Of a stretch of DNA of 64,000 bases, positions 40,042-43,122 are shown in pieces. This DNA is from Rhizobiaceae bacterium (lineage in GTDB: Bacteria; Pseudomonadota; Alphaproteobacteria; Rhizobiales; Rhizobiaceae). The number at the start of each line of letters is the position of its first letter. Positions within the stretch are counted from its first letter, which is position 1. Both the position numbers and the translations under genes were made by a program. The stretch covers positions 1-64,000 of the forward strand of contig JAMLJD010000008.1 of NCBI GenBank assembly GCA_023953775.1. The letters run 5' to 3'. The notes under the pieces were generated by a model. The model was given only the letters and a program-made list of their open reading frames with translations, made no database searches and was not told the DNA's origin.

Positions 40042-41025
40042 ATGCTTTCCCGTGTCTTCGGCCTCGGCCGCCGCTCCTTCGACAGCCTGTCGGAACAGGA
40101 GGTTCTCGCGCTCGCCATCTCGTCGGAAGAGGATGACGGGCGGATCTACCGCGCCTATGCCGACGGGCTGCGCGACGCCTATCCCGCTTCGGCGAAGGTG
40201 TTCGACGAGATGGCGGAGGAGGAGGACCATCACCGCGCCATGCTGATCGAGAAGCACCGGCAGCGCTTCGGCGAGACGATCCCGCTGATCCGGCGCGAGC
40301 ATGTGCGCGGCTATTACGAGCGCAAGCCGGACTGGCTGGTGCGGCCGCTCGGGCTCGACCAGGTGCGCGGCCAGGCCGAGGCGATGGAGGCGCAGGCGCA
40401 CCGCTTCTATGTCGAAGCGGCAAAGCGGACCACCGACGCCTCGACCCGCAAGCTGCTCGGCGATCTCGCAGCGGCCGAAAAGGGACATGAGTCTCTGGCG
40501 CGGCGCCTTGCCGGCAAGCATCTGACCGAGGATGTCCGCGCCGAAGAGGACGAGGGCGAACGGCGGCAGTTCATCCTGACCTATGTCCAGCCGGGGCTGG
40601 CCGGGCTGATGGATGGCTCGGTCTCGACGCTGGCGCCGATATTCGCGGCGGCCTTCGCGACCGGCGACACCTGGCAGACCTTCCTCGTCGGCCTGTCGGC
40701 CTCGGTCGGCGCCGGCATCTCGATGGGCTTCACCGAGGCCGCCCATGACGACGGCAAGCTGTCGGGGCGCGGCTCGCCGGTGATCCGCGGCCTCGCCTCG
40801 GGCATCATGACGATGCTCGGCGGGCTCGGCCACGCGCTGCCCTATCTCATCCCGCATTTCACGACGGCGACGATCACCGCGGTCGTCGTCGTGTTCTTCG
40901 AATTGTGGGCGATCGCCTTCATCCAGAACCGCTACATGGAGACGCCGTTCCTGCGCGCCGCCTTCCAGGTGGTGCTGGGTGGCGGGCTGGTGCTGGCAGC
41001 GGGCATCCTGATCGGCAATGCCTGA
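40042..41025 (+). CDS. mbfA: Membrane-bound ferritin MbfA (ferritin-like domain fused to VIT/CCC1 transporter)
   Basis: A 327-residue inner-membrane iron exporter. The N-terminal ~165 residues form a rubrerythrin/ferritin-like helical bundle with EEDHH and ELAAAEKGHESLA-type iron ligands (FDEMAEEEDHHRAML, LLGDLAAAEKGHE); residues ~175-327 are a VIT1/CCC1 transporter (GLAGLMDGSVSTLAPIFAAAFAT, LSASVGAGISMGFTEA, five helices). MbfA exports iron and protects against iron and peroxide stress in rhizobia and Agrobacterium. The perfect ICE box 17 bp upstream matches known Irr control. Confidence 0.96.
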   Translation: MLSRVFGLGRRSFDSLSEQEVLALAISSEEDDGRIYRAYADGLRDAYPASAKVFDEMAEEEDHHRAMLIEKHRQRFGETIPLIRREHVRGYYERKPDWLVRPLGLDQVRGQAEAMEAQAHRFYVEAAKRTTDASTRKLLGDLAAAEKGHESLARRLAGKHLTEDVRAEEDEGERRQFILTYVQPGLAGLMDGSVSTLAPIFAAAFATGDTWQTFLVGLSASVGAGISMGFTEAAHDDGKLSGRGSPVIRGLASGIMTMLGGLGHALPYLIPHFTTATITAVVVVFFELWAIAFIQNRYMETPFLRAAFQVVLGGGLVLAAGILIGNA

Positions 41026-41373: not shown

Positions 41374-41702
41374 TGCGCCTCCCTCTCCGCATGCGGCGTG
41401 GAGGCGAGCTTCAGGAAGATACGGTCTTCCTTGAGAATGAACCGTTCGCGGCGGGCGAAGTCGTAGTTCTCGCGCCCGAGCGGATCAGCGGCAAGCCGCG
41501 CCCGATAAGCCTCGTATGCCGCCAGGCTGGCGATGTTGTAAACGCCGTAGGCGATGGTGGCCGAGCCTTCATGCGGCGCGAAGTAGCCGATAAGGTCGGC
41601 GCCGCAGCGCGGGATCGCCTGCCCCCAGTTGCGGGCGTATTGCCCGAAAGCGTCCTTGCGGAACGGGTCGATCTCGTAGCGGATGAAGCAGGTGATTGTC
41701 AT
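41370..41702 (-). CDS. NIPSNAP family protein
   Basis: A 110-residue dimeric alpha-beta-barrel protein of the NIPSNAP family: [58 protein letters not shown] and [17 protein letters not shown]. Function is unknown. It is cotranscribed with the ABM gene, and TTCGA-N6-TCGAA (41734-41749) lies 32 bp upstream. Confidence 0.85.
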
Positions 41703-41733
41703 CGGGATGCCTTTCAGGAAATGACGATGACGC

Positions 41734-41749
41734 TTCGACGTTCATCGAA
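41734..41749. promoter_or_regulatory. TTCGA-N6-TCGAA palindrome before NIPSNAP-ABM operon
   Basis: TTCGACGTTCATCGAA, extended by GC/GC to CGCTTCGA...TCGAAGCG, lies 32 bp upstream of the NIPSNAP start. It has the same spacing as the site next to the ArsR-type gene at 42056-42071, so it is a candidate operator of that regulator. Confidence 0.55.
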
Positions 41750-41786
41750 GCGATGGGATTTGCACATGGGGTACGATACTCCTTTG

Positions 41787-42002
41787 CTAGTCCCAGTACG
41801 AACGCGCGCATTCGCGCCGCGCCTGCGCCGGCGTCACGCCGATGTCGGCGAGCATGCGATCGTCGAGTTCGGCCAGGTCGAGGCGTTGCTGATAGCGATC
41901 GTGCAGGCGCACCAGCCGGGCAAGCAGGCCGGCAAGGGTCGCGACCGGAAGCGAGGGGCCGGGCACGAAATCGGCAATCGCCTTGCGGAGGATGATGGAC
42001 AT
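41787..42002 (-). CDS. DUF1127 small protein
   Basis: A 71-residue protein ending in the DUF1127 signature LDDRMLADIGVTPAQARRECARSYWD. These small Arg-rich proteins in alphaproteobacteria influence RNA turnover and phosphate or carbon metabolism; exact role here is unknown. The N-terminal half is longer than in the ~47-residue class. It begins the leftward side of the divergent region with the ArsR-type regulator (start at 42002, 71 bp between start codons). Confidence 0.85.
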   Translation of the reverse strand: MSIILRKAIADFVPGPSLPVATLAGLLARLVRLHDRYQQRLDLAELDDRMLADIGVTPAQARRECARSYWD

Positions 42003-42055
42003 GAACCTATCTCCGTTTCGATGCGGGCATCATAGCGATTGAACGACGACGATAC

Positions 42056-42071
42056 TTCGATTATGATCGAA
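42056..42071. promoter_or_regulatory. TTCGA-N6-TCGAA palindrome before ArsR-type gene
   Basis: TTCGATTATGATCGAA ends 2 bp before the ArsR-type ATG at 42074 and lies in the divergent promoter region with DUF1127. Position over the translation start fits autorepression. A second copy with the same spacing is at 41734-41749. Confidence 0.6.
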
Positions 42072-42073
42072 CC

Positions 42074-42757
42074 ATGAAAGACACGCCCGACCTTGCCCGT
42101 ATTGCGACGCTCGTCGGCGACCCGGCAAGGGCATCGATGCTCGACGCGCTGATGAATGGCGGCGCGCTGACCGCCAGCGAGCTGGCGCTCGAGGCCGGCG
42201 TCACGCTTCCGACCGCGAGTTCGCATCTCGCCAAGCTGACCGAGGGCGGCCTGACGAAGGTCGCGAGCCAGGGCAGGCACCGCTACTACGCGCTTTCAGG
42301 CCCGCAGGTCGCGGCGATGCTGGAATCGATCGCAGGGGTCGCCGCGGCCGTCGGGCCGAAGCGGGTGCGGCCCGGCCCGCGGGACGGCGCGCTGCGACAG
42401 GCCCGGGTCTGCTACGATCATCTCGCCGGCGACCACGGCGTCGCGATGCTGGATGGTTTCGTGGCGCGCGGGCTGATCGACGGCGATGATGCGGGGCTCG
42501 CCGTGACGGCCAAGGGCGATGCCTTCTTCCGCGCGCTAGGCGTCGACATGGACAGGCTGGCCAGAAGCCGCCGCCCGGTCTGCCGCGCCTGTCTCGACTG
42601 GAGCGTGCGCCGCACGCATCTGGCAGGCGGCCTCGGGGCCGCGCTCTACGAACTCATGCTCGAACGCCGCTGGGCGCGGCGCGATCCGCAAAGCCGGGCC
42701 GTGATCTTCTCGCCGTCGGGCGCCAACGCCTTCCGCAGGGACTTTCTGGCCGCGTGA
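42074..42757 (+). CDS. ArsR-family transcriptional regulator with long C-terminal domain
   Basis: A 227-residue protein: ArsR winged helix in the first ~90 residues (IATLVGDPARASMLDALMNGGALTASELALEAGVTLPTASSHLAKL), then an ~130-residue domain with RPVCRACLDWSVRRTHLAGGLGAALYELML. The C-x-x-C-LDW-S element recurs in long ArsR-type regulators, and may bind metal or sense redox state; this is inference. It is divergent from DUF1127, NIPSNAP and ABM genes, which carry matching palindromes. Confidence 0.88.
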   Translation: MKDTPDLARIATLVGDPARASMLDALMNGGALTASELALEAGVTLPTASSHLAKLTEGGLTKVASQGRHRYYALSGPQVAAMLESIAGVAAAVGPKRVRPGPRDGALRQARVCYDHLAGDHGVAMLDGFVARGLIDGDDAGLAVTAKGDAFFRALGVDMDRLARSRRPVCRACLDWSVRRTHLAGGLGAALYELMLERRWARRDPQSRAVIFSPSGANAFRRDFLAA

Positions 42758-42981: not shown

Positions 42982-43122
42982 ATGGAATACTGGAACCAGC
43001 TCACGCGCTGCACGCGTGCCATCCGCGAATTCGTGGTGCCGAGCTATCGGCCCGAGCGCCACTACATGCGTGGACCGGGGCCGGCCTGCGCGCGACGCGG
43101 CGGCACCGTTCAGTTTCAGTGA
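42982..43122 (+). CDS. Small hypothetical protein (46 aa)
   Basis: An open frame of 46 residues starting MEYWNQLTRCTRAIREFVVP and rich in aromatic and Arg residues (SYRPERHYMRGPGP). GGGTACGGGAC precedes the ATG. I know no named family; the N-terminus reads like a conserved small rhizobial protein, but this is from memory. Its end overlaps the convergent DUF1850 gene by 7 bp. Confidence 0.35.
   Translation: MEYWNQLTRCTRAIREFVVPSYRPERHYMRGPGPACARRGGTVQFQ

Follow-up and report, generated by a model that had tools for sequence, protein, structure and literature searches.

Two matched palindromes in a Rhizobiaceae genome are very probably the operators of the adjacent ArsR-like regulator, which, judged from sequence and its comparison, would act as the autorepressor of a small detoxification-type unit (Table 1). 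Within the window, the whole 64,000-nucleotide stretch that was analysed, the pattern TTCGA-N6-TCGAA has two exact matches only, TTCGACGTTCATCGAA and TTCGATTATGATCGAA, hereafter operators 1 and 2, and the first can be extended to 8-bp perfect arms as CGCTTCGA-N6-TCGAAGCG. Both stand exactly where the original prediction had placed them, with the same arms and spacing: operator 1 starts about 32 bp upstream of the NIPSNAP start codon (minus strand), and 2 bp separate operator 2 from the ATG of the regulator. The gene identities proposed there, namely the regulator (HTH_20/HTH_5), DUF1127, NIPSNAP, ABM and MbfA, also hold. In the proposed mechanism, a dimer of the regulator's N-terminal winged helix-turn-helix (HTH) domain would bind TTCG-N8-CGAA. 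Binding at operator 2 would cover the -10 box of the regulator's own, probably leaderless, promoter and adjoin the divergent DUF1127 promoter, while binding at operator 1 would block transcription of the overlapping NIPSNAP and ABM genes, and a signal acting at the C-terminal domain (C113/H116 and C173/H182) would release the regulator. In this scheme we infer the binding itself, repression as the sign of control, the co-control of DUF1127 and the effector, for which a thiol-reactive or a metal signal is the likeliest choice.

Table 1. Positions of the regulator locus and its neighbourhood in the window
Feature	Position	Strand	Remark
Candidate Irr (ICE) box, perfect palindrome TTTAGAACTCTTCTAAA	40009..40025	.	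upstream of mbfA
mbfA, iron exporter	40042..41025	+	convergent neighbour, outside the unit
ABM-domain protein, 114 aa	41029..41373	-	start overlaps NIPSNAP stop by 4 bp
NIPSNAP-family protein, 110 aa	41370..41702	-	first gene of the presumed target operon
Putative operator 1, CGCTTCGACGTTCATCGAAGCG	41731..41752 (core 41734-41749)	.	upstream of NIPSNAP-ABM; kept 19-42 bp before NIPSNAP across loci
DUF1127 small protein, 71 aa	41787..42002	-	possible co-target; between both operators in this lineage
Putative DUF1127 -10 box, TATGAT	42029..42034	-	inferred; its -35 would touch operator 2
Sigma-70-like arsR promoter, TTGAAC-N17-TATGAT	42039..42067	+	-10 box 42062-42067 inside operator 2
Putative operator 2, TTCGATTATGATCGAA	42056..42071	.	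covers arsR -10 box; kept at -18 in orthologues
Two-domain ArsR-like regulator, JemC-type, 227 aa	42074..42757	+	winged HTH and C-terminal tandem repeat

The pair is rare by composition. Shuffling of the window gives an expected count of 0.16, and two or more matches arose in 2 of 100 shuffles. The whole assembly (4.23 Mb) contains six such palindromes and none of a reversed control pattern; two of the six are the pair at the arsR locus, with some 300 bp between them, and the remaining four fall within long reading frames (three) or in a hairpin-like stretch (one).

The position of operator 2 bears directly on the proposed mode of control. A search of 41600-42200 found a single sigma-70-like promoter, that of arsR. 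Its -10 box stops 6 nt short of the ATG, which makes a leaderless mRNA probable; since this box lies inside operator 2, occupancy of the site would block the arsR transcript. In a set of 119 distinct upstream regions, all with the operator at -18, a TANNNT in the operator centre is accompanied by TTG at -35 in 53 of 55 cases, and a Shine-Dalgarno-like centre, found mainly in core Mesorhizobium, lacks TTG at -35 in 55 of 59, although the regions are related and these counts are therefore not independent events. Loci with the Shine-Dalgarno-like centre seem to use a different promoter, and in the core Mesorhizobium clade the right arm of operator 2 is often degenerate as well, so promoter occlusion is not universal. 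On the DUF1127 side, AGAATA-like conservation at -45 to -40 of arsR matches the putative -10 box of that gene, and many loci keep the operator without DUF1127. Co-control of DUF1127 through operator 2 is no more than plausible, its one support being that operator 2 would touch a poor putative -35 region. The original prediction of one regulator acting on both palindromes fares differently in its parts: the tie of the ArsR-like protein to NIPSNAP and ABM is strongly supported by the comparative data, and the tie to DUF1127 is weaker.

These comparative data come from 80 named loci of GTDB genomes, mostly Mesorhizobium and other Rhizobiales, to which further loci were added from relatives, from the class and from the phylum. 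The regulator-NIPSNAP-ABM neighbourhood recurs across the gathered loci, as do the palindromes. Orthologous loci lacking both sites would have spoken against the prediction, and the comparative search proposed at the outset did not refute it in this way. At 88 distinct loci, NIPSNAP and the regulator are separated by a long gap. Of these, 58 have the strict palindrome no more than 70 bp from NIPSNAP and 35 have it no more than 45 bp from the regulator; it is absent from 630 kb of DNA flanking these loci. In lineages without DUF1127, arsR and NIPSNAP-ABM point away from each other across some 70 bp and have one operator in common; the simplest history would be that a second operator arose by duplication or de novo when DUF1127 came between them. 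Covariation of the operator arms was tried as a further line of evidence and gave no information, there being too few different sites and almost no variation in their arms. At two loci (L015 and L043), NIPSNAP and ABM were not detected and an operator persists between mbfA and the regulator, at about -320 of the latter, as if NIPSNAP-ABM had been deleted.

ArsR-family proteins are usually repressors that an effector releases, and the outgroups have a single operator for the two divergent genes, lying over the arsR -10 box. Both points make unlikely the alternative of operators through which NIPSNAP-ABM would be activated, with or without repression of the regulator gene itself, a mode of action known from some ArsR-type proteins. 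What speaks for activation is the placing of operator 1, 19-42 bp before the NIPSNAP start codon depending on the locus and with no consensus promoter overlapping it, together with a report that Brucella ArsR6 activates omp25D while also regulating itself (PMC8509827).

The reading of the palindromes as operators of the adjacent regulator gains from the much wider distribution of the site. Among 91 representative homologues less than 80% similar to one another, TTCG-N8-CGAA occurs between -160 and +20 of the regulator start in 73, whereas each of the 11 other arm permutations is found in none, other spacings from 0 to 20 in 0-2, and the site itself once in a downstream control stretch; with one mismatch allowed, the count rises to 85 of 91 as against 9 in the control. 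The plasmid-borne homologues examined, 15 in number and drawn from Proteobacteria, Actinomycetota and Bacillota, all carry the site, those of Streptomyces clavuligerus, Corynebacterium aurimucosum and Staphylococcus epidermidis included, where about 0.01 sites per homologue would be expected from base shuffling. In 12 of the 15 its distance from the regulator start is about 70 bp or less, and those of R100/Tn10, Cronobacter and Pantoea dispersa have it before the first gene of the operon (ABM). The site thus tracks the regulator gene even where the neighbours (MFS, ABM, NIPSNAP and others) differ. For about 40% of the representatives, the flanks that were retrieved show no ABM and no NIPSNAP gene, and therefore the targets vary; a Pfam scan of the neighbours in diverged lineages returned MFS (4), EamA (3), TauE (2) and GST (2), with no single constant partner among them.

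It is this tracking across phyla, mobile plasmids and a transposon, despite differing neighbours, that renders very improbable the idea of another, unlinked transcription factor controlling the locus and its relatives, an idea left some room by the fact that the tie between protein and site is itself read from sequence. An accidental pair, in a genome where TTCGA/TCGAA palindromes are simply common, has a practically negligible chance of being the explanation: the looser form TTCGR-N6-YCGAA does occur at 29 places against 9 for its reversed control, mostly inside reading frames where examined, but the strict form is found 6 times in 4.2 Mb with 2 of these here, orthologous conservation and spacing specificity tell against composition, and the cross-phylum conservation refutes it. 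A wider regulon in the window's own genome was considered and is not claimed, because of that same location of the examined TTCGR-N6-YCGAA places inside reading frames.

The regulator itself combines a familiar domain with an unfamiliar one. Its N-terminus scores 38.8 bits for HTH_20 (cut-off 27) and 27.7 for HTH_5 (cut-off 22) in Pfam, and its best PDB matches are ArsR/SmtB proteins (SmtB, CmtR and ArsR), which places it in the ArsR/SmtB fold as an ArsR-type winged HTH protein. The marks of classical metalloregulators are nevertheless missing: the NCBIfam model NF033788 is just missed (54.7 vs 55 bits), and the alpha3 ELCVCD-type metal motif is replaced by ALTASELALEAGVTLPTASSHL, a segment without Cys. 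The C-terminal part has no match in Pfam or NCBIfam. When the profiles of residues 105-163 and 164-227 were compared by hhalign, the two halves matched with a probability of 98.2 and an E value of 3.7e-14, neither resembling the N-terminal domain; by this comparison the C-terminal domain is an internal tandem repeat. Each unit opens with C-x-D-(0 or 6 residues)-H-L-A-G, followed in the predicted structure by helix, strand, strand and helix. C113, H116, D175 and H182 are present in all 91 representatives and C173 in 90, while C170 is often substituted; the C-x-x-C-LDW-S motif noticed previously in the long C-terminal domain is indeed there, as C170-RA-C173-LDWS. We use the term JemC-type for a group of two-domain regulators defined in this analysis by a tandem repeat with C-Y-x-H-x-A-G and C-x-D-W-x-x-R-x-x-H and by TTCG-N8-CGAA at the start of the regulator or its operon, all of which the window regulator has.

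From its conservation, C113/H116 together with C173/H182 is plausibly a metal or thiol sensor site. A pseudo-symmetric Cys2His2 site formed by C113, H116, C173 and H182 is the natural guess, with a thiol sensor as the alternative. The absence of C173 from the S. epidermidis homologue speaks against a Cys2His2 metal site as an obligatory feature. The AF2 model has a mean pLDDT of 67.7, lowest at the Cys/His segments, and for this reason we make no claim on the distance between these residues. The metalloregulators SmtB, CzrA and CmtR share the N-terminal winged HTH, but the window regulator has about 130 additional C-terminal residues, and its TTCG-N8-CGAA operator differs from the AT-rich imperfect 12-2-12 repeat of SmtB-type operators. 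BigR, SqrR and HlyU, single-domain ArsR folds found among its fold matches, offer a possible analogue in their Cys-based sensing; these thiol-based proteins sense through cysteines of the single ArsR-fold domain itself, whereas the conserved Cys residues of the window regulator belong to a separate C-terminal domain. Two candidates for close relatives were rejected: Bacillus CdsR, a 95-aa single-domain protein, and Brucella ArsR6, for which neither a stated palindrome nor a tie to NIPSNAP could be found.

A close known counterpart is carried by Tn10, whose published gene order is tetA-tetR-jemC-jemB-jemA (PMC7767384). The R100 annotation gives no gene name for the regulator beside tetR(B), which we identify as JemC by that order. 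It is a full-length homologue, identical to the window regulator at 84 of 218 aligned positions, and both proteins carry C-Y-D-H-L-A-G and C-x-x-C-LDWSERR-x-H. Its locus likewise includes an ABM gene, the product of which is 47% identical to the window ABM protein over 97 aa, and a TTCG-N8-CGAA site, TTCGTTGCTTATCGAA, 53 bp before that gene. The arrangement differs in that the ABM gene is co-directional with JemC, in a same-strand operon ABM - ACT-like - regulator with the regulator last, without NIPSNAP and without DUF1127; this gene order is also found on a plasmid of Cronobacter, which carries a site of its own. The protein between ABM and the regulator in R100/Tn10 (L188, 3571-3954) has weak ACT-domain matches (E 0.0003), its Cronobacter counterpart an ACT match at E 5.7e-6, and a role as ligand-binding partner is possible. 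The jem genes have been described as unrelated to tetracycline resistance (PMC9412624), and no functional study of them was found in the literature searched. The description of the window locus as a small local regulon of unknown purpose is fair as far as it goes, but the system extends across the regulator family, with a gene of Tn10 among its members.

With regard to the likely role, NIPSNAP and ABM proteins have a common ferredoxin-like dimeric fold, and in the PDB, YqjZ (entry 2go8) is a weak relative of the window ABM protein. Elsewhere the regulator neighbours MFS and other exporters as well as glutathione S-transferases, and an ABM protein of Pseudomonas aeruginosa, ArqI (PA0709), is induced by glyoxal (PMC12274486). 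Taken together, these neighbours and the glyoxal-induced ABM gene point to a unit that would respond to toxic small molecules. The induction of ArqI by a toxic electrophile is a possible guide to inducers, although its operon partner is the glyoxalase GloA2 and the term ArsR is absent from that paper (PMC12274486). No paper joining ArsR with NIPSNAP, ABM or DUF1127 was found in the literature searched; a local ArsR-type regulon is of a known kind, and the regulator type, the sensory domain and the cross-phylum operator appear undescribed there. A bolder reading, to which we give an even chance, is that of a pan-bacterial JemC-type family in which a C-terminal tandem-repeat sensor with a pseudo-symmetric Cys/His site and a TTCG-N8-CGAA code, extending from rhizobia to Streptomyces, Staphylococcus and Tn10, control ABM/NIPSNAP or MFS genes under one common chemical stress. 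If true, it would account for the jem genes of Tn10, which have long lacked an explanation. A testable operator and likely targets are now available for a widespread family annotated only as 'winged helix-turn-helix protein', which includes the cargo regulator of a heavily used transposon and the C-terminal domain of which, being without a Pfam or NCBIfam model, looks like an undescribed sensory module.

The iron exporter gene mbfA, to which the locus had earlier been linked, is an incidental neighbour outside the regulator unit. It is convergent to ABM, it was not detected beside the regulator in outgroup loci, and it has a palindrome of its own, TTTAGAACTCTTCTAAA (TTTAGAA-N3-TTCTAAA), 16 bp upstream, where 0.01 would be expected. 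We take this palindrome to fit the Irr (ICE) box consensus; it is likely an Irr site, one that concerns mbfA alone, and its presence suggests separate control of mbfA.

Some minor observations concern neighbouring or unrelated sequences. Downstream of the regulator, at 42982-43122 of the window, lies a 46-aa frame (MEYWNQLTRCTRAIREFVV...) with no Pfam match. On the Vibrio coralliilyticus plasmid (L187), a second palindrome, TTCGATGCCCATCGAA, at 819-834 lies 59 bp before a DUF6058 natural product biosynthesis gene, possibly a further JemC-type target. Lastly, near 6.3-6.8 kb of another contig (L005; G000:C94), two short minus-strand frames encode similar peptides of about 23 aa (M-x-YEAPKAKEVKLPA...); they resemble tandem small peptide precursors, with a hairpin-like TTCGA palindrome between the two.
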